Shown here piece after piece: positions 2,143 through 16,622 of a stretch of 64,000 bases of DNA. The notes beneath the pieces were generated by a model that saw only the letters and a program-made list of their open reading frames with translations, searched no databases and was not told where the DNA came from. Within the stretch, counting starts at the first letter, position 1, and each line of letters starts with the position of its first letter. A program made the translations under genes and the position numbers. The stretch is from assembly GCF_002895005.1 (NCBI RefSeq), contig NZ_POWF01000006.1:62001-126000 (forward strand), in the 5' to 3' direction. The stretch is from Hanstruepera neustonica. GTDB lineage: Bacteria > Bacteroidota > Bacteroidia > Flavobacteriales > Flavobacteriaceae.

Positions 2143-2227
2143 GGAGAAATGGCAGAGTGGTCGAATGCGGCAGTCTTGAAAACTGTTGAGGGTCACACCT
2201 CCGGGGGTTCGAATCCCTCTTTCTCCG
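2143..2227 (+). tRNA. tRNA-Ser (anticodon UGA)
   Basis: 85-nt class II tRNA with a 7-bp acceptor stem (GGAGAAA at 2143-2149 against TTTCTCC at 2220-2226), discriminator G, anticodon loop CTTGAAA with anticodon TGA, a long variable arm and a GGTTCGAATCC T-arm. CCA is not encoded. Its last 12 bases are duplicated at 16609-16620, so it is the attachment site of the integrative element that follows. The insertion keeps the tRNA intact. Confidence 0.95.
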
Positions 2228-2229
2228 CT
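2216..2229 (+). repeat. attL: 14-bp direct repeat at tRNA-Ser 3' end
   Basis: CCTCTTTCTCCGCT overlaps the last 12 bases of tRNA-Ser and the following CT. It is identical to 16609-16622, and the flanking bases differ on both sides, which sets the length at 14 bp. Confidence 0.9.
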
Positions 2230-2251
2230 GAAATTTATTCAATTTCAATCA

Positions 2252-2284
2252 AAGTCCTGTAAACACTATGTTTATGGGACTTTT
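2252..2284 (+). terminator. Rho-independent terminator after tRNA-Ser, supplied by the element
   Basis: A 14-bp stem (AAGTCCTGTAAACA at 2252-2265 with TGTTTATGGGACTT at 2269-2282, including two G-T wobbles) is followed by a short T run. It lies inside the element, directly after the tRNA. The original downstream terminator is probably the hairpin now at 16624-16649. Confidence 0.7.
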
Positions 2285-2329
2285 TAGTTTCTACAAAACA
2301 TCAAAAAGTGTATTAAAAACCATTCTGTT

Positions 2330-2466
2330 GGTGACCTATTAGGTGACCTTTTTAAAACCCTATTTAGGTCACCTAAAATGTTAATAACTATCTATAAGTC
2401 AGTTATTTAAATTGATAAAGCGACCTGAAAATTTCGTAACTTAATGTATAATTTTAAAGGTCACCA
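2330..2466. promoter_or_regulatory. Integrase arm-type binding-site candidates, left end
   Basis: GGTGACCTATTAGGTGACCT (2330-2349) holds two direct copies of AGGTGACC-like heptamers. Inverted copies AGGTCACCT (2366-2374) and AAGGTCACC (2458-2466) follow just before the integrase start. The 20-mer recurs unchanged at 16530-16549. Repeats of this kind at both ends of an element are what arm sites for the N-terminal domain of a tyrosine integrase look like. Binding is inferred. Confidence 0.65.
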
Positions 2467-2468
2467 GA

Positions 2469-3719
2469 ATGAACAAAACATTTGGATTATTATTCTACTT
2501 AAAGAAAAGTAAAGTAGATGCACAGGGTAAATCCCCTATTTACTTACGTATTACTGTCGATGGTAAACGTACAGAAATCAGTACCAAACGCACCATTGAA
2601 CCAGAACGGTGGAGTGCTGAAGCCAACAAAGCGATTGGAAGAACCGAAGATGTCCGAGAGCTGAACGCCTATTTAGATTCACTAACTACAAAGGTTTATC
2701 AAAGTCAAAGAGATTTAATTCAGGACAATAAGCCTGTAACATCGGAGACTTTAAAGAATAAGCTTTTAGGAGTCGAGGACAAAGAAAGAACGCTCATATC
2801 CATATTTGAAACCCACAATAAACAAGTAGAAAAGTTGGTAGGTCGTGAATTTTCCGCAGGAACTTTGGAGCGTTACAAAACTGTATCAAAACATCTACAA
2901 GATTTTATCAAACTACAGTACAAAGTTAGTGATGTAAGTATTAAAAAGATTGACCACCAATTTATAACGGACTTCGAATTTTACTTAAAGAGTGTCAGAA
3001 ATTGTGGTCATAATAGCACTATTAAATACATAAAGAACTTCAAAAAAATAGTGCGTATCGCTTTGGCTAATGGTTGGATAGCAAAAGACCCATTTCTAAA
3101 TTATAAAGTGCGTTTAAAAGAAGTTGAGCGTCAATTCTTATCAGAAGAAGAAATACAAGATATGCTCGATAAAGAATTGCATACCCCAAGATTGGAGCAA
3201 GTAAGAGACATTTTTATTTTCTGTTGCTTCACTGGTTTAGCATACAGTGATGTTAAGAAGCTCAACAGAGATAATTTGGTTTTTGGAATTGACGGTGAAA
3301 AGTGGATTAAAACCAAGCGTACCAAAACTGATACCCGCAGTAATATCCCTTTGCTTCCAACGGCTTTAGACTTAATAGAAAAATACAAAGACCATCCAGA
3401 AGCTGTTACAAGGGGTGTTTTGCTTCCAGTTTTAAGTAATCAAAAATCAAATGCCTATTTAAAAGAAATTGCAGATTTGTGTAAAATAAATAAAAATTTA
3501 ACGACACATTTAGCCCGTCATACCTTTGCCACTACAGTAACTCTTTCCAATGGAGTGCCGATGGAGTCTGTCAGTAAAATGTTAGGCCATAAATCCCTTA
3601 AAACTACACAGCACTATGCAAAAATATTAGATAGAAAAGTGAGCGATGATATGGCAATTTTAAGACAAAAATTCTCTAATAAGCCTACAATGGTGTCTAC
3701 TAAAAAATTAGGCACGTAG
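2469..3719 (+). CDS. int: Tyrosine recombinase (integrase) of the element
   Basis: 416 aa. An N-terminal arm-binding domain (about 1-90, GLLFYLKKSK...PIYLRITVDGKR) is followed by a SAM-like core-binding domain (about 105-205) and a catalytic domain (about 220-395). Catalytic residues seen are the HLARH box (His347, Arg350), the GH of MLGHKS (His374) and nucleophile Tyr383 in HYAKI. The segment that normally holds the first catalytic arginine reads GLAYSD, with Ala258 in that place. Several Bacteroidota integrases, such as IntDOT of CTnDOT, are known to lack this arginine. The gene sits 240 bp from attL and should catalyse integration into tRNA-Ser. The repeated AGGTCACC sites overlap its promoter region, suggesting autoregulation. 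Confidence 0.95.
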   Translation: MNKTFGLLFYLKKSKVDAQGKSPIYLRITVDGKRTEISTKRTIEPERWSAEANKAIGRTEDVRELNAYLDSLTTKVYQSQRDLIQDNKPVTSETLKNKLLGVEDKERTLISIFETHNKQVEKLVGREFSAGTLERYKTVSKHLQDFIKLQYKVSDVSIKKIDHQFITDFEFYLKSVRNCGHNSTIKYIKNFKKIVRIALANGWIAKDPFLNYKVRLKEVERQFLSEEEIQDMLDKELHTPRLEQVRDIFIFCCFTGLAYSDVKKLNRDNLVFGIDGEKWIKTKRTKTDTRSNIPLLPTALDLIEKYKDHPEAVTRGVLLPVLSNQKSNAYLKEIADLCKINKNLTTHLARHTFATTVTLSNGVPMESVSKMLGHKSLKTTQHYAKILDRKVSDDMAILRQKFSNKPTMVSTKKLGT

Positions 3720-3774
3720 GACATATAAACATTTCGATATAAAGTGCAAAAATAAATTAGCCTAAAACCTTCTG

Positions 3775-3807
3775 AAACCCTTGTAAATTCAAGGGTTTTC
3801 TGTTTTA
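3775..3807 (+). terminator. Terminator after integrase
   Basis: Perfect 9-bp stem AAACCCTTG (3775-3783) and CAAGGGTTT (3790-3798), six-base loop, then TCTGTTTT. It separates the integrase from the following HTH/polymerase pair. Confidence 0.75.
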
Positions 3808-3927
3808 AATGAAAGCGTTTTTTGTGGAAAACTGTTTATAACTTTCGCTTTAAAAATCATAGCTTTTGACGTATTTTAGTACTTAATAATAACAGGGTTA
3901 ATTCCCTTTAATACAGATTAATAGTAT

Positions 3928-4191
3928 ATGACATTAGACCTTATTACAAAGGATGATTTGAAGACTCTAAAACAAGAAATCATCACGGAATTAAGAACTA
4001 TTTTAGGAGGCCAGACAGAGCAAAAAAAATGGTTAAAATCAGCAGACGTAAGAGAGATGCTAAATATCTCTCCAGGCACGTTGCAAAATTTAAGAGTGAA
4101 TGGCACTTTGCCTTATACAATGATGGGTAAAACCATCTACTATGAGTACAATGATGTCATTAAGATTCTAACCCAAAACAAGAGTGCTTAA
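3928..4191 (+). CDS. Excisionase-like helix-turn-helix protein
   Basis: 87 aa. The first 30 residues are a charged helix. Residues 34-80 form a MerR/HTH_17-type winged helix (KWLKSADVREMLNIS, then SPGTLQNLRVNGTLPY, then MGKTIYYEYNDVIKIL). Small proteins of this form are common on Bacteroidota mobile elements, where relatives act as recombination directionality factors or replication/transfer regulators. The stop codon overlaps the ATG of the next gene by one base (TAATG), so the two are translationally coupled. That favours a joint role, as a loader or regulator of the polymerase-like protein, as much as a role in excision with the integrase. Confidence 0.8.
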   Translation: MTLDLITKDDLKTLKQEIITELRTILGGQTEQKKWLKSADVREMLNISPGTLQNLRVNGTLPYTMMGKTIYYEYNDVIKILTQNKSA

Positions 4192-5702
4192 TGAGGTTCT
4201 TTATCCCCGAGAACTTGGATATCGACCAACTTACCCACGAAAATCCACCGTGCTTCAAAAAGTACAAGTTCAAAAGAGATATGGCTCTTTACATCATTAA
4301 TTTGATTAATGCCTTACCATTGTTCAATAAAGATTTGATGTTTGAAGGGTTTGTTCCACTTAATTCAAAGTTGCTTCAAGATAAGATTGCCAATTATAAA
4401 GAGTATTTAAATTATTTGGAGCACGAGCTAAAAATTATTGAGTGTGATAATCAGTACATCCCTGGGTTTAAATCCAAAGGTTATAGATTGACTGAACAGT
4501 ACAGAACTGAAATTAAAAGTCAATCAGTAGTTGATTTTACATTTGGCAGGAAATTGAAGTTTGAACGTAATAAAAGAGCGGCATCGGTAGCTCACCTTGA
4601 ATATCTAACTAAATGGTTTAATCCAAAATTAGAAATTGACCTCGATTTTGTCAATGCTTTTTTAAGGGAAGAATATCAATTAAAAAGATACAATCAAGCT
4701 TTGTGGGATTACGACCGAAATCGAAAAAAATTCAAAGAGCCGATGATGCAATTCAATCACGCAAAAATTAGCGCCGAAAAAATCGATAGGCAAGATTATT
4801 ATTTGTTGCACGATGAAAATGTATATCGCTTTCATTCGAATCTTACCAATATGAGAAGCATCATTAGAAATGCGGTGACTTATGACGGACAAAAATTAAT
4901 TTCAATAGACATTAAAAATAGTCAACCCTATTTAAGCACCATCCTTTTGAGTCGCTCTTTCTGGATTGAACAAAAATTTGGAGCCAAAAATGAAGAATCA
5001 CTATCAATATCATTTGATGAACCGCAGCGTGTCACAAATAAAGGTTTTAATGATTTTAAAAGATTAAATTATGAAAGTGAGAGAGGTTTTGATGAAAGAT
5101 TGAATATATCACAAATAAAGATTCACGAAAACGATTCTTACATTATGTTAGGAGATATTGATAAATCCCTTATGAATAGTGAGTTTAGTAATTATATCAA
5201 TTTGGTAGTTAATGGAGGTCTTTACGAGTTTTTGGAGGAAGAATTTAAAATCAACTTGGGTGAAGTATTCTCTAATAGGAAAGATGTCAAAGCAGCAGTT
5301 TTTCAAGTGCTATTTACAGACAATAGGTTCTTTGGTCAAGACGAGGCAAGACCTAAAAAGTTATTTCAAGAATTATTCCCTTATGTGTATGAGGTCTTCA
5401 AGCAAATCAAGAGCAAAGACAAATCGTTGCTACCTCGCTTATTACAGAGTATAGAAAGTTACTTGATGATTGATGTAATTGCCAAACGCATTTCAATCGA
5501 ATATCCTGAAGCACCCATTTATACGATACACGATAGTATTGCCACAACTGAAGAGTATGTAGACATTGTTCAGCAGATAATGAGTGAGGAGCTATCAAAA
5601 GCAATCGGACATCCTCCAAAATTGGCTCGTGAAGAATGGTCTAAAAGGAATATGATTAAATATCTGTCTGGTCTTAAAGAAAGCTCCAAAATCGCTGTTT
5701 AA
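4191..5702 (+). CDS. Family-A polymerase-like protein (candidate TV-Pol)
   Basis: 503 aa, no signal peptide. Residues 1-205 match nothing I recognise. Residues 210-470 carry, in order, the signposts of the family-A / T7-like polymerase palm and fingers: RFHS (213-216) as in the template-contact box; motif A candidate SIDIKNSQPY with Asp240; motif B RKDVKAAVFQVLF (Arg363, Lys367, Phe371, Phe375), which lines up with the R-K-F-Y positions of the Pol I O-helix; a LLQSIESYLMIDVIAKRI helix before motif C; and motif C YTIHDSI (His447-Asp448). No 3'-5' exonuclease is visible. The small size and mobile-element setting fit the TV-Pol family described by Iyer, Abhiman and Aravind. A role in replicating the element is inferred. 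Motif spacing was judged by eye. Confidence 0.6.
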   Translation: MRFFIPENLDIDQLTHENPPCFKKYKFKRDMALYIINLINALPLFNKDLMFEGFVPLNSKLLQDKIANYKEYLNYLEHELKIIECDNQYIPGFKSKGYRLTEQYRTEIKSQSVVDFTFGRKLKFERNKRAASVAHLEYLTKWFNPKLEIDLDFVNAFLREEYQLKRYNQALWDYDRNRKKFKEPMMQFNHAKISAEKIDRQDYYLLHDENVYRFHSNLTNMRSIIRNAVTYDGQKLISIDIKNSQPYLSTILLSRSFWIEQKFGAKNEESLSISFDEPQRVTNKGFNDFKRLNYESERGFDERLNISQIKIHENDSYIMLGDIDKSLMNSEFSNYINLVVNGGLYEFLEEEFKINLGEVFSNRKDVKAAVFQVLFTDNRFFGQDEARPKKLFQELFPYVYEVFKQIKSKDKSLLPRLLQSIESYLMIDVIAKRISIEYPEAPIYTIHDSIATTEEYVDIVQQIMSEELSKAIGHPPKLAREEWSKRNMIKYLSGLKESSKIAV

Positions 5703-5725
5703 TAAATGCCTCTGAATAATCAACT

Positions 5726-5766
5726 AAACCCAAATATAACCCAACGGTTGTTTTGGGTTTTTTGTT
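5726..5766 (+). terminator. Terminator after polymerase-like gene
   Basis: AAACCCAAA (5726-5734) pairs with TTTGGGTTT (5752-5760), with a small inner stem (AACCC/GGTT region), followed by TTTTGTTTT. It isolates the polymerase pair from the restriction-modification operon. Confidence 0.7.
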
Positions 5767-5854
5767 TTAAACATTTCTTACAAATAATACCGATTAACAT
5801 AAAAGATTTATATTTTTAGGGTTTCCACAAAAACTAACAATTCCAAACCGAACA

Positions 5855-8800
5855 ATGTCAAAATCAATAGACAACCTAAAATACTTCCTTAAAGAAATGT
5901 TCCAATTCAACGAAAATGATTTGGACTTCGGAATCTACAAAATATACAACCTAAAGCGTAAACACATTGAAAGCTTTATTGATGGTGATGGTGTAGGCGA
6001 TTTAACACCTACAATCGAAACCATTTTAAAGGAAGTCAATCTCGAAAATCAAAAGACGGACTCTATTGAATTATACAACTTCTTAAAGAATTTAAATCAA
6101 GATAAGTTATTAGAAGATCCAGAGGCAAACTACAAACAATTAGAATTGTTCATTGGCACAGAACAGAGTGAAGATAAAAAAGCGAAACTTACTGAATCCC
6201 TAAACAATCTTTCCAAATCAGAAGGTTTAACAGACGAGCTTAAAGACAAAATCTACAATCACATACTTGGGTTTTTCCAAATGTATTATTCCAATGGTGA
6301 TTTTGGGTATAACGACCGCAGTAGAGATTTGTACAAAGTACCTTATGAAGCCGATTATAACGGTAGCGACACAATGTTTCATTGGAAACATAAAGGGAGT
6401 TTATACATCAAAACAGGTACATCTTTCAACGCTATTAAGTTCGACTTAAACGGTAAGAAAATTGAATACCGTTTAGAAACCAATGTACATAGTGAAGATG
6501 AAGGTACAAGCCAAAACAACAACAAAGACAGCCAATTAAAACACTACCGTTTTGATAGAATTGAAAAAGTAAAAGACAAAACGACTAATGAAGACGTTTA
6601 TCAAGTCATTTTTAACCTATCTGATGCTTCAACCTCTAAAGTTGATATTTATAAAGCCATATACAAAGAGGTGTATAATGAAACTGATATTCATAAATAT
6701 TTAGAATACGAAAAAGATGGTAAACCCAAACAGGTATTTGTAGACTTAACCAAAGACTTTGACAAAGTCCAAAATGGTGCTATAAAAGGTTTATCTGCTC
6801 TACGCCAAAAGAAACTAAAGATAGAAAAAGAAGTAAAAAACAACTTTGAGCGTGGTGAGCGTTTGTATGACGAAGCAACCAAAGAGTTTACCGATGAAAC
6901 ATTAAAAGCCTTATATACATTAGACCAAAAACTAAATAGCTTTTACATTGGTAACGATGCCGATTACTTTATTCACGAAAACCTAAACGAGTTTCTTAAT
7001 AACGAGAAAAACCGTTACGTTAAAAATTACATCTTTGATGATTTAGAAAGTATTTACAGTGGTAAGTTAGATAATACCACTTTATTAATTGCTAAAGCAT
7101 TTGATAAGGTAAGCTCACGTATTATTGAGTTTTTAAGTGCTATTGAAGACTTCCAGAAACACCTGTTTACCAAAAAGAAAAAAGTAGTAGAAAGTGAATA
7201 TTGTATTACGGTAGATTATATAGACGAAAAATACTACCCAGAAATTCTCGCCAACAAAACTCAACTGCAAGAATGGGAAATCCTTTTTAGTTTAGAGGTT
7301 AAAACGGTTGAGGACCTAAAAGCTAACCCAACATTAGTATTGGATACAAAATGTTTTAAACAACCCGATGGCACAAACCCATTTAAAGATAAAATACTTG
7401 CTGAAATTGAGGATTTAGATGAAAATACCAATGGGCTATTAATTAACTCTGAAAATTATCAAGGTCTTAAAGTTCTTCAGAATAAGTATAAAAATAAGGT
7501 TCAGACAATTTATACTGACCCACCATACAATGCAAAATCATCTGAAATAATATACAAGAACAATTTTAAACATTCAAGTTGGGCAAGTTTTATGCAAAAT
7601 AGAATAAGTCTTTCCAAGACATTTTTGCAACAAGATGGAATATTTGAAATTGCGATTGATGATTACGAAGTAACTTCTTTATGGAAGGTTTGTGATTCTA
7701 TATTTGGTTCTGAAAATTTTATAGCTAATGTATTAGTGATTCATAACCCACGTGGAAGAAATGATGATAAATTTTTTGGTACTGCGCACGAATATATGCT
7801 AACATTTGCTTTTGATAGAGAAAAAGCTCAAATATTAAACTTTAAACCAACTGAAGAACATATAAAGCAATATAATAAGGAAGATGATATATCACCTTAT
7901 GCATTGACAGGATATATGCGTACTGGTAATAATTCTAACAGACACGAAAGACCTAACTTGTTTTATCCAATATATATCAACCCTAAAAACAAAAAACTTT
8001 CTTTAGAAAACGGTGAAGGTTTAATTGAAGTATTACCAATAAATTCTGATGGTGATGAGAAAACTTGGCGTTGGGGAGAAGATACTTTTGTAAAAAGAAA
8101 AGACACAGAAATACTTGTTTCAGAAAAAAACGGAGTATGGAGTCTACAAAAGAAAAGGAGGTTTTTAGGTGAAGGAAAAAAACCAAAAACTATTTGGCAC
8201 GACTCAAGATATGACGCATCAACAAATGGTATTATGCTTATGAAGGCATTATTCAATGATGTTAATTTATTTAGTTATCCAAAATCCATTTATACAGTAT
8301 TTGATGCCTTATCAGTTTCAACTTCTGAAAACTCTTTGATCCTTGATTACTTTGCAGGTTCGGCAACAACTGGTCACGCAACAATAAAGTTAAACAAAGA
8401 AGATAAAGGTTTTAGAAAGTATTTATTAATAGAAATGGGTACATATTTTAATATCGTTACAAAACCCAGAATCCAAAAAGTAATTTATTCAGATAATTGG
8501 AAAAACGGTAAGCCATTAGATAACAATGGTTCGCCAAAGCACATATTTAAATACCAAGTATTAGAACAATACGAAGACGTATTAGATAATCTACAAGTCT
8601 ATAATGGTGAGCTGCCAGAAAACCTGCCTATAAAATACTTATACAAACCAGAAGAAAATAGTTTAGATAACACACTCAACCTTTTTACACCATTTAGCAA
8701 TACCATAAGCTACGGGCAACCTACTCAACAAGGTTTTATAGATGTGGTAGAAACCTATAACTATTTACAAGGGTATTTTGTAAGGTCTATAAAAACCTAT

Positions 8801-9049
8801 GAGCTACATAAAAAGTACTATAAAGTAGTAGAAACCACCAATGGCGTTTTAGTGATTTGGCGAGATATTACCATCAATGAAGATGATAGCCAACAAGTTA
8901 TTGAAATAGCTTCTAAATATGAAAACATACACACCATAGAAGTTAATGCAGAATTTGCAACCTTACAATTAGATAAAAGCAATCATCTTAAAGTAGGTGA
9001 TAATAATATAGAGTTGCGAATCATTGCTAAAGATGTGTTTAACCAATAA
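5855..9049 (+). CDS. mod: Type III restriction-modification Mod: adenine-N6 DNA methyltransferase
   Basis: 1064 aa. The methyltransferase core lies in the C-terminal half, in beta-class order. Motif IV is TDPPYNA (Asp555-Pro-Pro-Tyr558) and the SAM-binding motif I is DYFAGSATTGH (831-841), as in type III Mod proteins that methylate adenine in an asymmetric site. A target-recognition region would lie between them (about 620-800). About 500 residues precede the catalytic core, which makes the protein much longer than classical Mod subunits (roughly 650 aa). That N-terminal part is lysine/aspartate-rich and helical and I do not recognise it. First gene of a tight four-gene operon, with 9 bases to res. 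Needed for self-protection and, in type III enzymes, for cleavage. Confidence 0.9.
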   Translation: MSKSIDNLKYFLKEMFQFNENDLDFGIYKIYNLKRKHIESFIDGDGVGDLTPTIETILKEVNLENQKTDSIELYNFLKNLNQDKLLEDPEANYKQLELFIGTEQSEDKKAKLTESLNNLSKSEGLTDELKDKIYNHILGFFQMYYSNGDFGYNDRSRDLYKVPYEADYNGSDTMFHWKHKGSLYIKTGTSFNAIKFDLNGKKIEYRLETNVHSEDEGTSQNNNKDSQLKHYRFDRIEKVKDKTTNEDVYQVIFNLSDASTSKVDIYKAIYKEVYNETDIHKYLEYEKDGKPKQVFVDLTKDFDKVQNGAIKGLSALRQKKLKIEKEVKNNFERGERLYDEATKEFTDETLKALYTLDQKLNSFYIGNDADYFIHENLNEFLNNEKNRYVKNYIFDDLESIYSGKLDNTTLLIAKAFDKVSSRIIEFLSAIEDFQKHLFTKKKKVVESEYCITVDYIDEKYYPEILANKTQLQEWEILFSLEVKTVEDLKANPTLVLDTKCFKQPDGTNPFKDKILAEIEDLDENTNGLLINSENYQGLKVLQNKYKNKVQTIYTDPPYNAKSSEIIYKNNFKHSSWASFMQNRISLSKTFLQQDGIFEIAIDDYEVTSLWKVCDSIFGSENFIANVLVIHNPRGRNDDKFFGTAHEYMLTFAFDREKAQILNFKPTEEHIKQYNKEDDISPYALTGYMRTGNNSNRHERPNLFYPIYINPKNKKLSLENGEGLIEVLPINSDGDEKTWRWGEDTFVKRKDTEILVSEKNGVWSLQKKRRFLGEGKKPKTIWHDSRYDASTNGIMLMKALFNDVNLFSYPKSIYTVFDALSVSTSENSLILDYFAGSATTGHATIKLNKEDKGFRKYLLIEMGTYFNIVTKPRIQKVIYSDNWKNGKPLDNNGSPKHIFKYQVLEQYEDVLDNLQVYNGELPENLPIKYLYKPEENSLDNTLNLFTPFSNTISYGQPTQQGFIDVVETYNYLQGYFVRSIKTYELHKKYYKVVETTNGVLVIWRDITINEDDSQQVIEIASKYENIHTIEVNAEFATLQLDKSNHLKVGDNNIELRIIAKDVFNQ

Positions 9050-9058
9050 GCCTTACCA

Positions 9059-12000
9059 ATGGAGTTAAAACTATACGACTACCTGCGTAAGGAAGGCATA
9101 AACAATCCTGATGCAGATTTTAGAGAAGAAACCTATCAAAACAAAGTAGAGCAGTTTGACACGACGTTAGGGTTAAATAACGATATTTTAGATACTGTAA
9201 AAAAGTATTTAAAAACCTATAACACCTATTTAAAAAGCAACCAACAGCAAGAAGTTAGTTTACGCTACTATCAAATATTAGCCCTGTACTATACTGAACT
9301 TTATTTTCAAAAAAGAGATGAACACGATTTTATCTATGCAAAAGAATCTTTAGCCTATTGGATGGCTACAGGTAGTGGTAAAACCATTATAATGCACCTA
9401 AATATTTTACAATACATCAATCATTGTAAAAACTTTAGAGATTTTGAAATTATAATGACCACACCTGGTGTGAATTTAATTGAGCAGCACGAAAGAGAGT
9501 TAACACCATTTATAGAATTTTTGAACGGCAAGTATCGTAACACCATTCGTTTGACGATTGATACCACTTCTGCATTATTAAATAAACCAAACGACTTTTT
9601 CGATTTTCCTCAAACTAAATCGTATCGTAGACTCATATTAGTTGATGAGGCGCATATTGGATTAAGTACAACCGGAAAGACGGGAACCGATGGGGCTTTT
9701 ATGGACTTGCGTAAAAGATTAAACATAGAAAACAGTTTCTTATTCGAGTATTCAGCAACCTTTCACAATATTACAGGAGAGCTGGAAAAGGATTATGAAA
9801 AATCAATAGTGTATGATTACAATTACAATCTATTCTATAGAGATGGATATGGTAAAGATTACTTTTTTCAGCAAGTCGGTGATGATGTATTAGAGAAAAG
9901 TTTTGATGACAATCTGCATCATAATCTCGATATCATTAATGAAAAAATAGAGCTTTGGAATAAGATTGATTATGCTCTTGAAAAAGACTTGTTTAAAGCG
10001 ACACAGTTCCCAGATAAGCCCTTAATTGCCTTTATGGGCAATACTGTAAACAATAAAGAAAAGTCAGCTAAAAACGAAGATGATGAAGTTTCTGATATTA
10101 CTAATATTGTCAACTTTTTAGCAAAATTAACCGATGCAGAAAAAACAAAGTATAAGTATTTATTCAATGAGGATATTAATGGTAAACTTACTTTAACTCG
10201 AAACCCAGAAACAGATGATGAAATTTTATTGTCTTATGGTAACGGTGGCTATTTCGGGATTGTTAATGTCGGTAATGGCGCAAAATTTATTAATGATTTA
10301 GATAATGACAAAGTTATAAAGAGTCCACGAGACAAGGTTATAATTTCAAACCTTGAGCGGTATTCCTTTAAAAATATAGATAGTCAAAGCTCACCAATCA
10401 ATATACTGATAGGTAGTAGAAAGTTTGCTGAAGGTTGGAACTGTTTTAGAGTTTCAGTTATAGGATTGATTAATTTGGGAAGCTCAAAGGGTAATAAAAT
10501 CATTCAAATATTTGGTAGAGGTGTTCGTATAAAAGGTCTGAAAAATGATGGTAAGCGTACCTTTCCAAATCACAATGAAGACTACTTTAAATTAAAGAAT
10601 ACCAAAGAAGAAGATAAACTTCGCAAAATAGAAACCTTATGTGTGTTCTCTCTCAAAAAATCCTATTTAGAAACTTTTACAGGAGCAGTAAATAAGGAGC
10701 TTGAAATTTTAAGACGTTATGAAATTACTGTAAGTCCAAGTATTATTAAGTTAAATGATAATACGGAAATAAAATTTGAAGAGTTTAGAAAACGTATTCC
10801 CATATTTAAACTATCAAAATTAGAAATAGAGCAACGTAGAGTTTCATTGCTTGATAGCAATAGCTTCAAAGTTCAATATCGTCAAAATGGCAATATTGCT
10901 GATGATACAGTGAATAATTTTTCAATAGCATTAGATTATAGACCCAACAGAAATGAAGAAGGAAAAGACATTACAGGAGAATTGGTCAACTTTTTAAACC
11001 ACTTTCAATCCTTTATTAATTTAAACAGGTTAGAAAGTTTGGTTTCAGAATTTCAAGAAGAAAATAGCTTATATGTCAATGCGAATAATAAACCAATTAC
11101 AATTCAAAATATACTTCAGTATGTTGGAAGCGTCACATACAAATCCTCGTTAGATATTACAAACCTTGAATTGATTGAAAACCTTGTATATCAAATAGCA
11201 TTGGATTTCTTAAAGAGATTGAAGAACAAAGTCAATTGGTATATTAATAATAGTAATTACGAATATCAGGAATTATTGAATCAAAGTACAGAAAGGGTTA
11301 AAGGAGATTTCATAGATAAGTATTACATTTTAAAAACCATTGAATCAACAAAAGAAGTTAGAAATAAAACCACCTTTAAAAAACAATCTGAAATTGATTC
11401 AGAGATTAAGGAATTTGAAGAACAAATTGAAGCAATTTCAGAAAACTTAAAAATTGATACGATTGGTAATCACATCTATAATCCACTTTTAAGAGAAGTA
11501 AAAAATAATATTGATTCTGAAAAAGATTTAAAAATCTCACCAGATAAACTTAATGCTGGAGAAAAGAAATTTGTTCAAGACGCAGCTAACTTTTTTAATG
11601 GCAATAAGGATTTTAAAGATTATGAAATATACCTTATGCGTAATGTGGAAACATTAAAGAGCATAGGGATATATCTAAACGATGATTCACAAGTATTTTA
11701 TCCAGACTTTATTTTGTGGCTTTTAAAAGGTGACAAAATCTATATCAACTTTATTGACCCAAAAGGACAAATGGGGATTCAAGATGCTACTACTTTATTG
11801 GATAATGAAAAGGTTAAAATAGCAGATAAGGAGAACAATGATACATTAGTAAAATTAGAAAGAGCATTATCTAAAAATCATAAGAAAACATTTATTCTAA
11901 ACTCTTTCTTGTTGTTACGTGATAGTTCAATGTTGGGTTTTAATAAGCCTAACAATTGGGTGAAAGATAATTTAATTGATAAGAATATCTTTAGACTTAA

Positions 12001-12103
12001 TTGGCACACAACTGATGAAAAAGAACAAAAAGTTCCGGCTAACAAACTTCCAGATGGTAAGAGTTATATGGATTTATTAGTTGAACATATGGATTTAATT
12101 TAA
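9059..12103 (+). CDS. res: Type III restriction enzyme Res: SF2 helicase-nuclease
   Basis: 1014 aa. SF2 translocase motifs: Walker A ATGSGKT (Gly105-Lys108-Thr109), motif II VDEAH (196-199), motif III FEYSATF, and motif VI region IIQIFGRGVRIKG. The C-terminus has a PD-(D/E)xK-type nuclease site: YPDF (Asp883) followed 17 residues later by FIDPKGQ (Asp900, Lys902). These are the parts of a type III Res subunit, which with Mod recognises unmodified sites, hydrolyses ATP and cuts DNA. All motifs and the reading frame are intact, so the system should be active. Base composition looks more AT-rich than the flanking chromosome, consistent with transfer. Confidence 0.92.
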   Translation: MELKLYDYLRKEGINNPDADFREETYQNKVEQFDTTLGLNNDILDTVKKYLKTYNTYLKSNQQQEVSLRYYQILALYYTELYFQKRDEHDFIYAKESLAYWMATGSGKTIIMHLNILQYINHCKNFRDFEIIMTTPGVNLIEQHERELTPFIEFLNGKYRNTIRLTIDTTSALLNKPNDFFDFPQTKSYRRLILVDEAHIGLSTTGKTGTDGAFMDLRKRLNIENSFLFEYSATFHNITGELEKDYEKSIVYDYNYNLFYRDGYGKDYFFQQVGDDVLEKSFDDNLHHNLDIINEKIELWNKIDYALEKDLFKATQFPDKPLIAFMGNTVNNKEKSAKNEDDEVSDITNIVNFLAKLTDAEKTKYKYLFNEDINGKLTLTRNPETDDEILLSYGNGGYFGIVNVGNGAKFINDLDNDKVIKSPRDKVIISNLERYSFKNIDSQSSPINILIGSRKFAEGWNCFRVSVIGLINLGSSKGNKIIQIFGRGVRIKGLKNDGKRTFPNHNEDYFKLKNTKEEDKLRKIETLCVFSLKKSYLETFTGAVNKELEILRRYEITVSPSIIKLNDNTEIKFEEFRKRIPIFKLSKLEIEQRRVSLLDSNSFKVQYRQNGNIADDTVNNFSIALDYRPNRNEEGKDITGELVNFLNHFQSFINLNRLESLVSEFQEENSLYVNANNKPITIQNILQYVGSVTYKSSLDITNLELIENLVYQIALDFLKRLKNKVNWYINNSNYEYQELLNQSTERVKGDFIDKYYILKTIESTKEVRNKTTFKKQSEIDSEIKEFEEQIEAISENLKIDTIGNHIYNPLLREVKNNIDSEKDLKISPDKLNAGEKKFVQDAANFFNGNKDFKDYEIYLMRNVETLKSIGIYLNDDSQVFYPDFILWLLKGDKIYINFIDPKGQMGIQDATTLLDNEKVKIADKENNDTLVKLERALSKNHKKTFILNSFLLLRDSSMLGFNKPNNWVKDNLIDKNIFRLNWHTTDEKEQKVPANKLPDGKSYMDLLVEHMDLI

Positions 12104-12109
12104 TAATAT

Positions 12110-13180
12110 ATGCAAGAATTGGCAGAAAAAATATTTGAAATAATAAAGGATTATCAATGTGATTATGCAGAAAGAAAATTTGAAATAACCGTTGAACACA
12201 TAATTGATTGGGCAAATCAATTTGATGATGATGCGGAATTTGTTTTACAAGAATTACTACATTTTCTACCAGAAACATATATCTCTAAAGAGAAAGCCAA
12301 ACAATTATTGCATACTAGATTATTAGAAATACAACAATTTTATGGTTATGCTTCTATGACTGAAATGATTGTTAATACTCATTTTTTCAACGTTCAAAAA
12401 AGTTATAAGAGTCAACCAGAAATTTTATCCCTAATTGATGAGGTTCTACAAACTGAATTTCAAATTAATTATAAAGACTTCTTAAATTCTCCTAAAACAA
12501 ACTATATTTATTTTGATGATGTTCTCGCGACAGGCGGAACAGTATTCCGTGATTTGGCAACTTGGCTTGAGGAAAAAGAAGATGGTGTTAACGAAAATTC
12601 TAAATTGATTATTAATCAGACAAAAACTCTCGGAATAAGTTTATTTTGTTATCATTCTCTTGGGTTTAGTAATATGCAATGGAGATTAATGAAGCAATTC
12701 GATGATAAAATTAAAAGGGTACTTTTAGTTGGTAAAGATTATGAAGTTGAAAATCATATAAAAACCAAGTGGATAGCGGAAAATCAAAAACTTAATTGTG
12801 TTTATCCTGTTGAAGAACAGTCTAAAGAAGTATTAGAATATTTAGCAAGTTTGGAAGCTGAAAATGATAGTGTACCTGCTTTTCGACCATCTAATCTACC
12901 TAAAAAAGAAACATTTTTTAGTAGTCCAGAAAATAGAATTAAACTTGAAAAAATATTTTTAGAAAAAGGAATAGAATTACTTAATAAAGTACAAACAGAT
13001 AATCCAGATAGGAGAAAAAGACCTTTAGGTGATACAGTACGTTCACATAAGACATTTGGCACAGGTACTTTGTTTTTTACTTGGCGAAATATTTCTAATA
13101 CGTGTCCGTTAGTTTTTTGGTGGGATGTTCCCGGTCATAATTGGCTACCACTTTTTTGTGTTAAGAATAGAGGTATATAG
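12110..13180 (+). CDS. Phosphoribosyltransferase-like conflict-system protein (PRTase-CE type)
   Basis: 356 aa, starting 6 bases after res. The clearest motif is YIYFDDVLATGGTVFRDL (133-150), the PRPP-binding loop of type I phosphoribosyltransferases (Asp136-Asp137, then TGGT 141-144). The flanks differ from nucleotide-salvage PRTases: an all-helical N-terminal region (1-100) and a C-terminal tail with RRKRPLGDTVRSHKTFGTGTLFFTW and WWDVPGHNWLPLF, probably substrate-specific. The overall layout fits the family named PRTase-CE (recalled from comparative-genomic work on immune systems), thought to act as an effector or nucleotide-modifying enzyme. No toxic activity has been shown here. The position between a type III RM pair and a NADAR gene supports a defence role. 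Confidence 0.72.
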   Translation: MQELAEKIFEIIKDYQCDYAERKFEITVEHIIDWANQFDDDAEFVLQELLHFLPETYISKEKAKQLLHTRLLEIQQFYGYASMTEMIVNTHFFNVQKSYKSQPEILSLIDEVLQTEFQINYKDFLNSPKTNYIYFDDVLATGGTVFRDLATWLEEKEDGVNENSKLIINQTKTLGISLFCYHSLGFSNMQWRLMKQFDDKIKRVLLVGKDYEVENHIKTKWIAENQKLNCVYPVEEQSKEVLEYLASLEAENDSVPAFRPSNLPKKETFFSSPENRIKLEKIFLEKGIELLNKVQTDNPDRRKRPLGDTVRSHKTFGTGTLFFTWRNISNTCPLVFWWDVPGHNWLPLFCVKNRGI

Positions 13181-13206
13181 TTAATTATTTTTTATATTGT
13201 AAAACA

Positions 13207-13827
13207 ATGAAGATTACAGAAAGAACATATAATAAAAAAGAGGTAATCGTTTTTAGAAGCACCAAAGCCAAATATGGTGGTCTTTCTAATATGGCAGGTG
13301 GTTACTCTTTAAGAGTAAATGATATTATAATTCCTTCAGCGGAAGCTCTTTATCAAGCCTGTCGTTATCCTTTATTCCCTTCAGTTCAGCAAGAAATTAT
13401 TGAGCAGAATAGTCCTATGACTGCTAAAATGATTAGTCGTAAGTATTTAAAATATACAAGACAAGATTGGGAAGAAGTGAAATACTCTGTTATGTATTGG
13501 GTTCTAAAAGTTAAGCTTTCGCAAAATTTTAATGAGTTTTCAAAAGTATTAAAAGAAACGAATGGAAAGCCTATTGTTGAATTATCTAACAAGGATAAAG
13601 ATTGGGCAGCAATAGAAGTAGATAAAAATACATTAGTAGGTAAAAATGCTTTAGGTCGATTATTGATGCAATTAAGAGAGGAATACGTGATAAATAATAA
13701 GCCAATTGAATGTGTTCAACCCATTGATATGTTTGGATTTTTATTATATGGTTCCGAAATTGATACGGTATGTAATCCTAATATGGAGTTCGAAAAAGAT
13801 TATCTTTTTGATTTAGATTACGCCTAA
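13207..13827 (+). CDS. NADAR-family (YbiA-like) ADP-ribose glycosidase-type protein
   Basis: 206 aa. Family signposts: FRSTKAKYGGLSNM (16-29, the [FY]xxLSNf strand), PSAEALYQACRY (43-54, Glu46 in the position of the conserved active-site glutamate), SPMTAKMISRKY, DWEEVKYSVMYWVLKVKLSQN (87-107), DWAAIE (132-137) and GKNALGRLLMQLREE (145-159). NADAR proteins act on N-glycosidic bonds of ADP-ribose-type substrates. Some have been reported to remove ADP-ribose from guanine and occur in toxin-antitoxin-like defence operons. About 45 extra residues (161-206) follow the core. Last gene of the Mod-Res-PRTase-NADAR run (26 bases after the PRTase). It may reverse or limit a modification made by its neighbour; this is inference. 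Confidence 0.85.
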   Translation: MKITERTYNKKEVIVFRSTKAKYGGLSNMAGGYSLRVNDIIIPSAEALYQACRYPLFPSVQQEIIEQNSPMTAKMISRKYLKYTRQDWEEVKYSVMYWVLKVKLSQNFNEFSKVLKETNGKPIVELSNKDKDWAAIEVDKNTLVGKNALGRLLMQLREEYVINNKPIECVQPIDMFGFLLYGSEIDTVCNPNMEFEKDYLFDLDYA

Positions 13828-14442
13828 TGCATTAAAATATTTGCTCTCATTTAATATCTTAAGCTAGTCTGTATTCCCCCACGCTCACCCTTACTGTTTT
13901 TATGTCATAATACTTGTAGCCAACGCTCTAATGGCACATTGCTTGTTTTATTGAGTTTTTTAATATTCAATTATGGTTCAATAAAAAAGCAAAGAGCCAT
14001 TGCCAACGCCTAAACAACTATTCCGCCATAAAAACTCCCCTCGCTATTTTACATAACGTAATAGTTATAGGAACATCCGCACCACCCAAACTCTGCCCAA
14101 GCTGTCCTATAACCACATTATGTAAAATATCTCCCTTTCCCCACGCTCAATTCCGTTTAAAATGTAAGTATCGGTAGAAGGAAAATACAATGCCACTTTC
14201 CCCGCCACCCTTTCAATGGTTTTAAAAAAATAGGTTTTGAATAATTCAGTTAAGAGATTAGCACATTGCTTTTTCTCGTACCTTAAAAAAGCAAAGCACT
14301 AATCTTAATACGCCTGTATGCGTAGCTCGATTATAAGCTTTATTATCATAAAACAATATAACAAGCTACCCATACACACGCACCAGCCACTACTAAAATC
14401 TGAACAAAAACCTATTTTTTTAAGCGATAACACCCCATTGAA
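13828..14442. other. Non-coding stretch with four different large hairpins
   Basis: No convincing ORF in 615 bases. Four imperfect palindromes follow each other. (1) 13930-13954 pairs with 13978-14001, enclosed by GTTTTTATG (13896-13904) and CATAAAAAC (14027-14035), with CCAACGC present in direct orientation on both sides. (2) ATTTTACATAA...TTATAGGA (14046-14072) pairs with 14105-14128. (3) 14251-14275 pairs with 14283-14307. (4) GTATGCGTAGCT (14316-14327) pairs with AGCTACCCATAC (14364-14375). The hairpins differ in sequence but share size and spacing. They could be recombination sites (attC-like), transfer-origin structures, decayed MITE-like repeats or structured RNAs. The sequence alone does not decide. 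Confidence 0.6.
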
Positions 14443-15042
14443 TCATCCTCGTAAACCAAGTTTTTCTTTTAATTGAAAATCATACAATTTATATTCATCT
14501 CCAATTCCAATTTCGCCTAATTCAAGAGCCTTATGTTTACGATAGTACCAATACGAATTATAAAATCCACCTTTCAAAAACAAAGTAATTATCTGCTTGT
14601 TCAATTCAAATTGATGCTGTACGTCTTGAACATAAAAAAAATGTATTCCAATTTTTGCTTTCAAGAATGGTAGCTGGATACTCTCACCAATCTTGGGTAA
14701 ATATTTAAGTTCCTTACACCTAAAGGATTCATATTTCTTATTGTAGTCAACGTGCATTCTAATCTCTACCTCACTAAAATCAAAAGTATAATCATAATCA
14801 TACGCAAAAAGGTTAGCATAGATTTCTTCTAATTGCTTCCGAATATGATGGGATTTAACCCCTGTCTTCTCTGCAATATCTTTTAGGGTAGGATAAGGTT
14901 CATCTCCCTCGTGATAATCTTTACCACTTAAAAATTCTACAAGTTGAGAATATCTTTCATTGCTCTTAAATTCCTTTTCTACTTGTGGCATAATTGAGAT
15001 TAAATCTATCAAAATTTGCTTTACTGAAATTGAATGCTCCAT
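14443..15042 (-). CDS. Hypothetical protein with helix-turn-helix segment
   Basis: 199 aa from the ATG at 15042 (MEHSISVKQILIDL). The frame is open for 65 more codons upstream, but that part reads like non-coding DNA and is rejected as coding. Residues about 50-80 (PTLKDIAEKTGVKSHHIRKQLEEIYANL) form a clear helix-turn-helix. The remainder is a beta-rich domain with many aromatic residues (MHVDYNKKYESF, GIHFFYVQDVQHQF, GGFYNSYWYYRKHK) that I do not recognise. A possible promoter -7 box TATCTTTG lies about 40 bases upstream on this strand. Probably a DNA-binding regulator carried by the element; its target is unknown. Confidence 0.6.
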   Translation of the reverse strand: MEHSISVKQILIDLISIMPQVEKEFKSNERYSQLVEFLSGKDYHEGDEPYPTLKDIAEKTGVKSHHIRKQLEEIYANLFAYDYDYTFDFSEVEIRMHVDYNKKYESFRCKELKYLPKIGESIQLPFLKAKIGIHFFYVQDVQHQFELNKQIITLFLKGGFYNSYWYYRKHKALELGEIGIGDEYKLYDFQLKEKLGLRG

Positions 15043-15284
15043 AATTTGAATATTTATTAGAATAAAAATAAAAAAAGATAGCAAAGATAAGTGGCTTCCT
15101 TCTGCCAGCCGCACAATGCTGTAAAGGTCAAGCCCTACGGGTTTTGAAAAAAATCTCCACCTAATAATATTTCGATGTTTTAGTAATAATAAAGAAGAGG
15201 TAGTATTTTTTCCAAAAACCTTGACAGCATTACCCACGCCACAAATGATACAGCTTTCTTTTTTTATTTTCTTTTAAAAAATTA

Positions 15285-15323
15285 TTAGAAAAAGAAAAGC
15301 CCTGTAATGCTAAATCACAGGGC
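15285..15323 (-). terminator. Terminator after MAK-start protein gene
   Basis: Read leftward, GCCCTGT (complement of 15317-15323) pairs with ACAGGGC (complement of 15299-15305), followed by a T-rich tail (complement of 15285-15298). It lies 30 bases downstream of the leftward CDS ending at 15353. Confidence 0.8.
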
Positions 15324-15352
15324 CATTTCCGCTTCAAAGGTCAGAATGAAAC

Positions 15353-16102
15353 TTATGCTACTTGAACAATATTTAAAACGTTGTAAGCACCGTTTTTAAG
15401 AACATATTGCACACCGTTGATTTCTTGGAAAAACTCTACCAAAAGCAAGAAAATCTCGTTTCCAGAGCCTGATGGAACACCGGCAGGAACCAAAGTTTGC
15501 GTAGCACTTGTAGCGTCGATTGGAAGATTCACAATAGGACTATACTCAATAGCACTATCAGTAGAGTCAAAGTCTAAATTCAAGAATGCACAAGATAAAC
15601 TTACGTGAGTTGCACCACTTGGATAAGAAATATCATTTGCAGGTGTAAAATTCGGAATTGTAATTTCACCAGTTGCTGTATCAACCGAAAACGGAGCAAA
15701 GAAAACAGCACTTAAAATAGCTCTATTATTAAAATCCAGCCCTTTTAGAATGGCTTTGCCCTCTGGAGTAGCCAATCCAGTAGCTACATTTCTTTCGCCT
15801 CTTATAGAGGTTGTATCAACATTTTTAATTTGCGTCATTACTTGCGTAACTCTACTCGCAACACGGTTATCTTTTGCTCTAATCATCAGATTTCGAACAG
15901 AAGTTCTCAACAACTTACCAGAAGATGCCGAACTTCCAAACTCACTGCCATTTTCACGGGTACGTTCAAACGCAGGGTCATTTTGAATACGCTCTTTAGA
16001 AACACCACCTTTAGTTTTCACTAAATAGCCTTCTTGAGCCTTGTAAAACGTCAGGTTATCCAACGTTCCTTCCAACTTAATAATTCCTTTTAATTTAGCC
16101 AT
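15353..16102 (-). CDS. Uncharacterised MAK-start family protein (element copy)
   Basis: 249 aa from ATG at 16102, chosen because the N-terminus MAKLKGIIKLEGTLDNLTFY then aligns with the second family member at 22485. The N-terminal 80 residues are strongly patterned: GTL..(N/T)FY, a GG, then R.REN..EFG..A..GKLLR. The C-terminal part (about 130-249) looks like beta-sandwich with IPNFTPANDISYP and VPAGVPSGSGNEIFLL. No signal peptide or membrane segment. I know such proteins only as hypothetical proteins in Flavobacteriia; the N-terminus recalls DUF6266-like structural proteins, but this is weak. Transcribed leftward, divergently from the 62-aa gene, with its own terminator. Function unknown. 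Confidence 0.7.
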   Translation of the reverse strand: MAKLKGIIKLEGTLDNLTFYKAQEGYLVKTKGGVSKERIQNDPAFERTRENGSEFGSSASSGKLLRTSVRNLMIRAKDNRVASRVTQVMTQIKNVDTTSIRGERNVATGLATPEGKAILKGLDFNNRAILSAVFFAPFSVDTATGEITIPNFTPANDISYPSGATHVSLSCAFLNLDFDSTDSAIEYSPIVNLPIDATSATQTLVPAGVPSGSGNEIFLLLVEFFQEINGVQYVLKNGAYNVLNIVQVA

Positions 16103-16167
16103 AACATCACAATTTTTTAAATGATTACAACGAATGTACGATATAAACTTTCTCAATGTTTACGGGT

Positions 16168-16204
16168 ACTTCCGAAGTGTTAATATCTTGCCGTAACTTC
16201 CGAA
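16168..16204. promoter_or_regulatory. Paired ACTTCCGAA operator candidates
   Basis: ACTTCCGAA occurs at 16168-16176 and 16196-16204, 28 bp apart, in the divergent promoter region between the leftward MAK-start gene and the rightward 62-aa gene. The first copy extends to a near-palindrome ACTTCCGAAGT. The spacing places the copies on roughly the same face of the helix. A regulator site is inferred. Confidence 0.4.
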
Positions 16205-16311
16205 AAGGGTTGCTTATTCATTGAAAAATTCGCCGTATATTGTTTAAGGAAGCCCTAAAGCTACTGTATACGTAAAGTATAGATAGAGTATTAATTTAAA
16301 ACAAAAAGCGA

Positions 16312-16500
16312 ATGAACAGAATCTGTATGTACCCTAAAGACGTGCAATTGGTTACAGGTAAGAGTGAACGTTATGGAAGGACCATAATTAAGAAGATTAA
16401 AGAACACCTTAACAAAGAACCACATCAATTAGTAACGATTGATGAATTTTGCACTTTTATGGGTTTAGAAACCAGTAAAGTACAAGGATTAATCAAGTAA
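16312..16500 (+). CDS. Small conserved protein, possible DNA-binding regulator
   Basis: 62 aa, MNRICMYPKDVQLVTGKSER then YGRTIIKKIKEHLNKEPHQLVTIDEFCTFMGLE. Lysine-rich, with two short helical segments (DVQLVTGKSERYGRTIIKKIK and TIDEFCTFMGLETSKVQGLI) of the kind seen in small MerR/excisionase-like folds. Short proteins beginning MNR.CMY.KDVQ are, as I recall, frequent hypothetical proteins in Flavobacteriia. It is the last gene of the element, 30 bp before the right copy of the 20-bp motif. Function unknown; it could act in excision or regulate the divergent gene. Confidence 0.65.
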   Translation: MNRICMYPKDVQLVTGKSERYGRTIIKKIKEHLNKEPHQLVTIDEFCTFMGLETSKVQGLIK

Positions 16501-16529
16501 ATTCCTTATCTTTACAACAAGGTTTTAAA

Positions 16530-16549
16530 GGTGACCTATTAGGTGACCT
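16530..16549. promoter_or_regulatory. Right-end copy of the 20-bp integrase-site candidate
   Basis: GGTGACCTATTAGGTGACCT is identical to 2330-2349 and in the same orientation. It lies 60 bp inside attR, as expected for an arm site used in integration or excision. Confidence 0.65.
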
Positions 16550-16608
16550 CAAAATGGTACAGGACTGAAACACTAATTAATACAGGCATTAAGAGATAGG
16601 TTCACTTA

Positions 16609-16622
16609 CCTCTTTCTCCGCT
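16609..16622 (+). repeat. attR: 14-bp direct repeat of the tRNA-Ser end
   Basis: CCTCTTTCTCCGCT, identical to 2216-2229. It marks the right boundary of the element, and chromosomal sequence resumes after it. Confidence 0.9.

Follow-up and report, generated by a model that had tools for sequence, protein, structure and literature searches.

The stretch of DNA analysed here (hereafter the window) covers 64,000 nucleotides of contig NZ_POWF01000006.1 from Hanstruepera neustonica, and close to its start a mobile element is integrated at a tRNA-Ser gene. Between an integration module and a set of cargo genes, the element carries a gene whose 503-amino-acid product we describe as a divergent family-A polymerase, on the basis of conserved residues, profile comparisons and a predicted structure. 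The original prediction, made from the letters and translations alone, had called this protein a compact family-A polymerase-like enzyme and possible TV-Pol, with RFHS, D240, R363-K367-F371-F375, an IQ/LQS-type helix and HD at 447-448, all of which were found at the places it had given. The gene and its features are as follows:

4191–5702, plus strand: divergent family-A polymerase gene, ATG to TAA, 503 amino acids
4191–4544, plus strand: N-terminal domain, residues 1–118, a winged helix in the AlphaFold2 model of the domain alone
4827–4829, plus strand: R213, beta-hairpin arginine, in 20 of 20 aligned rows and 108 of 108 sequences of a wider set
4908–4925, plus strand: motif A, D240-I-K-N-S-Q245, with the catalytic aspartate by alignment, and a glutamine which an ungapped count puts at the presumed Pol I steric-gate glutamate position
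5277–5315, plus strand: motif B (O-helix), R363-K367-F371-F375, from the model helix 363–375 and the hhalign alignment to Pol I
5439–5459, plus strand: LLQSIES, residues 417–423, with invariant E422 by alignment
5529–5534, plus strand: motif C, H447-D448, by alignment, between two strands of the predicted model

Conserved residues and distribution of the family

RFHS corresponds to residues 213–216, D240 lies within SIDIKNSQPY, and the family sequence after D240 reads I-K-N-S-Q-P. The claimed agreement of R363-K367-F371-F375 with the spacing of the Pol I O-helix was borne out, as these residues fall on a single helix (363–375) in the model, and hhalign places the motif-B arginine and lysine on the O-helix arginine and lysine of Pol I, with motif C also in register.

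Conservation was assessed in two sets of sequences. When the protein was searched without a motif filter against 296 genomes from its own order, all of them whole, 22 matched, the source genome included. Alignment A1 comprises the query and 19 homologues after exclusion of a duplicate (L004), two fragments (L018 and L022) and the second pieces of genes already represented. Its 20 rows show no change at R213, T219, D240, S244, P246, Y345, K367, P397, E422, H447 or D448, and at least 90% of them have R363. The wider set of 108 full-length sequences (95 of 105 hidden Markov model hits of at least 370 amino acids, of which 93 are distinct, together with 14 from the unfiltered search and the query) retains R213, D240, Y345, K367, E422, H447 and D448 in every member, while position 363 is arginine in 95, lysine in 9, glycine in 3 and glutamate in 1. 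Since the wider set was mostly retrieved with patterns taken from motif C, or from motifs A and C, its counts for these motifs are partly built in, and alignment A1 is the unbiased test of conservation. The four residues on which the original prediction had staked itself (D240, R363, K367 and D448) are therefore conserved, three of them without exception. Further alignments were A2 (the query combined with 63 of 90 non-redundant locus proteins), A3 (49 of the 64 sequences in A2) and A4 (8 of 266 matching phage records).

The family is present at 66 loci of the named genome collection, all of which, going by the genome names, we take to be Bacteroidota. A match was found in 19 of 395 evenly drawn Bacteroidota genomes, including the source genome, and the family is thus sporadic yet widespread in this group. 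Members also occur in 37 IMG/VR contigs and in six records of very large uncultured phages. A protein search of the whole source genome gave no second match to the polymerase, and the host's own Pol I is a 955-amino-acid frame on a different contig. Because the host keeps this ordinary Pol I, the island polymerase is an additional enzyme.

Predicted fold and N-terminal domain

AlphaFold2, supplied with 64 sequences, gave a model with a mean predicted local distance difference test (pLDDT) of 87.7 and a predicted template modelling score (pTM) of 0.86, in which residues 275–323 formed the sole stretch with pLDDT below 50. In VIA-align, model residues ~125–487 overlay family-A DNA polymerases, and the best rows, which count as tied by VIA's own rule, were apicoplast Pol (5dkt, Z 13.9, root-mean-square deviation (rmsd) 4.1, 270 aligned), Bst Pol I (4dsj, Z 13.6, 276 aligned), T7 DNA polymerase (Z 13.4) and Pol theta (Z 13.3). 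Foldseek concurred, returning 90 chains at E 0.001 or better (best 2.8e-5), while against predicted viral structures the two best matches had E 3e-24 and 7e-19, the second being named 'Putative DNA polymerase I'. A right-hand family-A fold with a palm of the RNA recognition motif (RRM) type is confidently predicted, as the original prediction had anticipated. The window protein resembles Pol I in this predicted fold (Z about 12–14) and in the register of the O-helix and motif C, but differs from it in having no exonuclease domains and about half the length.

The absence of an exonuclease domain, which had also been proposed, is reflected in the N-terminal part, where residues 1–118, modelled alone with 49 sequences (pLDDT 92.2), show the element order of a winged helix. 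The top VIA row for this domain was 4pql (Z 7.0, rmsd 3.3, 90 aligned), followed among others by 4pt7, titled 'Structure of initiator' (Z 6.7), Fur and ORC2 (both 6.3) and 5kbj, titled 'Structure of Rep-DNA complex' (6.2), and Foldseek gave no match at E 0.001. The model points to a DNA-binding-type domain and gives a hint of an initiator-like role. Kinship with staphylococcal RepA-type initiators was considered, as three of the top seven VIA rows are entries that we take to be staphylococcal RepA; with Z 6.2–7.0 and 7–9% identity it was rejected as an assignment and kept as a hint.

Relation to divPolA2, TV-Pol and Pol I

Direct scans of the window protein gave a best Pfam match of E 0.82, a best NCBIfam match of E 0.0064 (ribosomal S4, far below cut-off), only weak PHROG matches (E 0.03–0.2) and no PADLOC match at E 1. 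Across 64 members no fitting Pfam family emerged, none being matched by more than two members (best E 0.0002, Ndr, in two), and DNA_pol_A was not among the 25 listed of 50 weakly matching Pfam families. PHROG 4756, whose function is not known, matches 13 of the 64 members, and neither a single sequence nor two profiles found a match in sequence searches of the PDB.

Profile–profile comparisons were each accompanied by 60 column-shuffled controls. The family core matched divPolA2, represented by eight phage sequences, with Prob 98 and P 1e-13, where none of the 60 shuffles was as good (best 0.13) and reversed decoys gave 0.10–0.13. By this profile evidence, divPolA2 is the closest published group found. 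It has been described from 110 barbaviruses of 80–85 kb, which also encode PolB, and from further phages (PMC11348598). Both groups are compact and without an exonuclease, and R213, D240, R363/K367 and HD are in register between them, whereas S-Q-P after the catalytic aspartate and HDS in motif C belong to the window family. divPolA2 too has an N-terminal domain, which its authors could not relate to known domains (PMC11348598); compared with the N-domain of the family, the divPolA2 N-part gave P 0.099, with one of 60 shuffles as good. The window family was found at Bacteroidota genome loci, of which 45 of 66 are integrase-linked, though also in the IMG/VR contigs and phage records mentioned above. 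Single sequences gave less, with P 0.092 for AUR84708 (divPolA2) and P 0.16 for a divPolA1 sequence in a plausible register. An IMG/VR search with AUR84708 returned no relative, and one with A6 returned 12 contigs, again of the LMM01 group introduced below.

TV-Pols were defined by Iyer, Abhiman and Aravind in 2008, who predicted a primase-polymerase function for them from genomic context (PMC2579912). Our TV-Pol set was chosen here by motifs and profiles and contains two Polaromonas plasmid proteins, two genome hits and 5 of 16 LMM01-group sequences, with two weak or partial hits (L234 and L218) excluded. From its motifs we infer that MAP_030 of Ma-LMM01 is the TV-Pol of the 2008 paper. The family matched this set with P 8.9e-5 (none of 60 shuffles as good, best control 0.019), and the set in turn matched Pol I with P 4e-7, which closes the chain of relations. 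The family's own match to the Pol I profile had P 0.018, and although none of 60 shuffles was as good, the family-A profile relationship that had been put forward is by this route a weak one. The LMM01 group alone, whose sequences are nearly identical, also matched the family weakly (P 0.023–0.029); MAP_030 as a single sequence gave P 0.069 and ranked second among the open reading frames (ORFs) of its phage in hmmsearch (E 0.26). Between divPolA2 and the LMM01 group 5 of 60 shuffles were as good, and between divPolA2 and the wider TV-Pol set none was (P 0.0068). When single TV-Pol and divPolA2 sequences were searched with family profiles amid 1500 shuffled decoys the ranking was mixed: some, with L232 (E 1.3e-4) and three divPolA2 sequences (1.5e-5 to 3.6e-5) among them, stood above the best decoy, others fell among the decoys, and several aligned stretches were out of register.

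The family and the Polaromonas proteins have in common R-L-(H/Y), D-(I/L)-x-N-(S/C)-(Q/H), L-(L/I)-Q-x-x-E and H-D-(S/G), and L(L/I)QGVE is present in the two Polaromonas TV-Pol-like proteins. Like the window protein, TV-Pols have a beta-hairpin arginine, which is absolutely conserved, a pair of palm aspartates, RxxxK fingers and no nuclease (PMC2579912). The TV-Pol thumb consists of two antiparallel helices (PMC2579912); in our model, helices 151–167 and 184–199 precede R213, and two short strands adjoin this arginine. TV-Pols also have a conserved aspartate in the fingers, for which the text of the paper gives no position (PMC2579912); in the family, the column two residues ahead of the invariant Y345 (column 343) holds D in 23 of 108 sequences and G in the window protein. 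The N-domains differ, that of TV-Pols having been predicted as all-helical (PMC2579912) and that of the window protein modelling as a winged helix. The idea of a possible TV-Pol is supported by shared motifs and by a profile match to a set assembled here; the closest published group found is divPolA2. A homologue 50% identical to the window protein (L002:1471-3528, also L202:8523-10583) has an in-frame C-terminal GIY-YIG and NUMOD1 extension, in which GIY-YIG scored E 0.0011, below cut-off; nuclease fusions were never seen in TV-Pols according to the 2008 paper (PMC2579912).

The residue after S244 may bear on the nature of the product. Position 245 is glutamine in 104 of 108 family sequences, and by an ungapped count we take it to be the site of the Pol I steric-gate glutamate, so that the glutamine could, as a prediction from sequence, relax sugar selection. 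This would suit an element-encoded RNA polymerase that transcribes the element's genes in the manner of T7 RNA polymerase and reads promoters through its winged helix, a role that the divPolA2 authors considered for their own group (PMC11348598) and that has a faint echo in a weak match to a PHROG 'RNA polymerase' family (E 0.047). Set against this, the equivalent position in the eight aligned divPolA2 sequences is Glu in four, His in three and Trp in one, and a residue that varies in this way is by itself no RNA polymerase marker. In addition, the 50 VIA entries listed are all titled as DNA polymerases (one as a T7 replisome), with T7-like RNA polymerases not among them, though unlisted families remain possible. 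We regard an RNA polymerase as quite unlikely.

The element and its gene order in other genomes

The element spans about 2216–16622 (~14.4 kb). Its ends and recognised genes are:

2143–2228, plus strand: tRNA-Ser(TGA), the integration target (ARAGORN)
2216–2229, plus strand: left attachment core CCTCTTTCTCCGCT, the tRNA 3' end, an exact 14-base repeat of the right end
2330–2349, plus strand: likely integrase arm-type site GGTGACCTATTAGGTGACCT, left, a 20-mer identical to that at the right and of inferred role
2469–3719, plus strand: tyrosine integrase (Pfam Phage_int_SAM_5, Arm-DNA-bind_5 and Phage_integrase above cut-off; PHROG integrase E 1.1e-38)
3928–4191, plus strand: HTH_17 protein, excisionase-like (HTH_17 E 3.1e-8)
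5855–9049, plus strand: cargo, Type III methyltransferase, Mod (PADLOC MTase_III E 2.9e-117)
9059–12103, plus strand: cargo, Type III restriction enzyme, Res (PADLOC REase_III E 4.9e-49)
12110–13180, plus strand: cargo, PRTase-CE protein, DS32_1 anti-phage (NCBIfam NF053875 above cut-off; Pfam PRTase-CE)
13207–13827, plus strand: cargo, NADAR protein, DS32_2 anti-phage (NCBIfam NF053876 above cut-off; Pfam NADAR)
14443–15237, minus strand: ORF, function not known (no Pfam family at E 0.1; HTH_36 E 0.13)
15353–16156, minus strand: ORF, function not known (no Pfam family at E 0.1)
16530–16549, plus strand: likely integrase arm-type site GGTGACCTATTAGGTGACCT, right, a 20-mer identical to that at the left and of inferred role
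16609–16622, plus strand: right attachment core, an exact repeat of the left core, placed also by empty sites

The location on a mobile element, part of the original prediction, is supported by these tRNA-Ser attachment repeats and by congeneric genomes. In four of them the match to the window stops at 2228–2233; three of the four have an empty site, in which the tRNA is followed directly by window position 16609 onward, and the fourth (G299) has no window sequence after the tRNA. The exact 14-mer core is present in two of the four. The sequence AGGTGACC has six copies in the window against 0.66 expected, four of the six at the element's two ends.

A Pfam scan covered nine ORFs of the element, which has small ORFs besides, and among these nine it recognised neither a relaxase, a capsid protein or a primase nor a dedicated replication helicase, D5-like or other; Res carries its own helicase-type domain. 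The polymerase, flanked by the HTH_17 gene upstream and the Type III Mod gene downstream, is the only replication-like gene recognised on the element. The HTH_17 protein matches the PHROG family 'excisionase and transcriptional regulator' (E 9e-5), a match outscored by that to a family named simply 'HTH DNA binding protein', and its NCBIfam excise match (E 0.055) is below cut-off. Its stop codon and the polymerase start overlap by one base, as they do in L097 and L203.

Loci in other genomes extended at most 10 kb either side. An integrase related to that of the window (at least 200 amino acids) lies within 4 kb of the polymerase at 45 of 66 loci, in 21 of which the integrase 5' end is no more than 1 kb from a tRNA. 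Three arrangements recur: integrase-HTH_17-polymerase (the window, L097 and L203); integrase, an ORF of 300–370 amino acids, HTH_17 and polymerase; and, in Chryseobacterium and other Flavobacteriales, a polymerase that faces a convergent integrase and is accompanied by a divergent gene pair. In the sole locus tested, L047:7557-9729, this pair is an AAA_24 ATPase with DUF3871, which may assist the polymerase in replication or recombination. In tRNA-adjacent elements the position is repeatedly taken by gene pairs of about this size. From 42 candidate small ORFs upstream of the polymerase 24 were picked by eye, not blind; the corresponding ORFs of L203 and the window brought the number to 26, and every one matches HTH_17. 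Proteins of 300–500 amino acids between the integrase and HTH_17/polymerase (L066:8364-9356, L056:3718-4788, L031:8588-9550 and L071:6843-8318) have no Pfam family at E 0.1, and in L065:8823-9605 an HTH_17-like segment appears, by eye, to be fused at the C-terminus.

A closer comparison was made with L097, an IMG/VR contig. Its integrase is 86% identical to that of the window over 410 amino acids and its HTH_17 protein 83% over 87, whereas the polymerase is 41% identical over 482. At the DNA level the two are similar without a break (77.5%) between 2487, the L097 start, and 4198, 8 bases into the polymerase gene, and past 4198 it consists of short pieces only. In place of Type III and DS32, L097 carries a Type I restriction-modification (RM) system and a protein related to the SspE/Orf5 type. 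The simplest reading of this one pair, in which the direction is not known, would be that polymerase and cargo were replaced behind a conserved integration module. That a polymerase of the family stays beside the integration core even where other cargo follows favours a part in the life cycle of the element itself.

The same comparison bears on the possibility that the polymerase is another defence-island cargo gene, an effector that makes DNA or RNA upon phage infection. It adjoins Type III RM and DS32 genes, and a defence role has been raised by Rice for the PolA-SSB enzymes (PMC10061031), where SSB denotes single-stranded-DNA-binding protein. The gene, however, stands between the integrase/HTH_17 pair and the cargo, in a slot kept in L097 despite different cargo, PADLOC gave no match at E 1, and the host genome holds this single copy only. 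Such an effector seems to us distinctly improbable.

Proposed role

We consider the protein probably to be an element-specific primase/polymerase that acts on the excised or incoming element, an activity that we infer from the fold, the motifs and the gene order. The integrase and the Xis-like HTH_17 protein would excise the element at the tRNA-Ser repeats, and the polymerase would be produced together with the HTH_17 protein, as the start/stop overlap suggests. The N-terminal winged helix would dock onto element DNA, and the palm/fingers core would prime and/or extend DNA on the element while it is single-stranded, after excision or on entry, with a helicase and SSB borrowed from the host. 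The scheme presumes catalysis, a DNA target for the N-domain, an Xis function of the HTH_17 protein and a timing that coincides with excision, as well as priming, towards which the balance leans.

Several observations weigh against this proposal. The missing helicase and SSB are its main weakness: no helicase partner, SSB or origin was recognised beside the polymerase (distant OB proteins lay outside the modelling), so either the host supplies the first two or the enzyme may only fill single strands. At 21 of 66 loci, some on short contigs, there is no related integrase of at least 200 amino acids within 4 kb, and of the 21 loci with a linked tRNA only 5 were seen to contain the tRNA 3' end a second time, the copy in L059 and L087 being a neighbouring tRNA. 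On three of four plasmids with relatives or TV-Pol-like proteins another replication protein is annotated (a replication initiation protein on the Hymenobacter plasmid with a 29% homologue, and RepA on both Polaromonas plasmids with TV-Pol-like proteins), the Calothrix plasmid having no named Rep among 25 annotated features; the polymerase as a plasmid's sole Rep is accordingly unsupported. Taken alone the Pol I profile match is weak, the best shuffle reaching P 0.04; all VIA matches of the N-domain have Z below 8 and possibly reflect a mere common arrangement; and in the search for a link between the N-domain and the N-parts of TV-Pol or divPolA2, decoys scored equal or better.

A more self-contained 'Rep-Pol' can also be imagined, in which the winged helix would find the element's origin and the enzyme would prime and copy without a dedicated helicase or SSB. 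The polymerase gene would then be exchanged as a cassette behind the integrase-HTH_17 pair, perhaps together with an origin, so that related elements avoid competing. This we hold to be unlikely.

Gap filling or repair at the recombination joint, or second-strand synthesis alone, would dispense with priming. The compact, exonuclease-free protein would suit such tasks, CcPol without MP could only extend primers, and second-strand synthesis after transfer is among the proposals of Rice, who left the choice between replication after excision, this synthesis and defence (PMC10061031). Against it speaks redundancy, since host Pol I already fills gaps and would leave little to do for a specialised polymerase that brings a DNA-binding-type domain along. 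Sequence cannot separate this explanation from an element-specific primase/polymerase, and we rate it as rather unlikely.

A relative with reported activity supports the primase/polymerase reading by analogy. To the knowledge of the original prediction, biochemistry of bacterial TV-Pol members was lacking, which was mistaken, as CCPol-MP of SCCmec (SCC, staphylococcal cassette chromosome) was reported by Bebel and colleagues to be active as a polymerase and to prime de novo (PMC7581432). CCPol-MP, a PolA-SSB primase, resembles the window protein in its family-A domain and in its setting, a site-specific integrative island with a recombinase and restriction-type cargo (PMC7581432, PMC10061031). 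Compared by description, CCPol differs in its SSB partner, its adjacent helicase gene and a partial exonuclease domain, neither partner being recognised beside the window polymerase. PolA-SSB primases and T7 RNA polymerase are described as having a shortened last thumb helix (PMC10061031). A link to D5 helicases has been described for part of the TV-Pols and does not define the family (PMC2579912); the window element, with no D5 helicase recognised, is unlike that part.

The kind of locus is already known, since the 2008 paper lists Bacteroidetes TV-Pols and a subset on mobile elements with a lambda-type integrase near RM operons (PMC2579912). In the literature on TV-Pol, divPolA2, DUF3871 and DS32 we did not find the link of this element-borne family to divPolA2, the winged-helix prediction, a core with no recognised helicase on an end-mapped element or the cassette exchange, and in that on Bacteroidetes elements no paper fitted by its title and the start of its abstract. 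By sequence, divPolA2, described from phages, is here tied to integrative elements and given a context. Among TV-Pol relatives, CCPol-MP of the SCC branch is the only one with an activity reported in the literature examined. The window element is small, its ends are defined, and it has an integrase, an Xis-like gene and no recognised helicase partner, which makes it a convenient simple case for studying if excised integrative defence islands replicate and which enzymes they use.

Further observations on cargo and relatives

PADLOC 2.0.0 returned nothing for the PRTase-CE protein and only PDC-M42C for the NADAR protein; the DefensePredictor paper mentions NADAR and PRTase, with neither DS32 nor DS-32 appearing in its main text (PMC13092281). 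TV-Pol-like proteins were seen on small Polaromonas and Calothrix plasmids (L217, L218 and L219), each with a recombinase or resolvase gene. The very large uncultured phages that carry polymerase homologues (LR756511.1, LR756504.1, LR745206.1 and three others) measure 595–735 kb, with E 4e-15 to 2e-4. Near the right end of the element lies a 62-amino-acid ORF (16312–16500, plus strand), whose one similar ORF, of 65 amino acids (L032:8354-8551, E 1.6e-17), is on a contig that also has a polymerase homologue.

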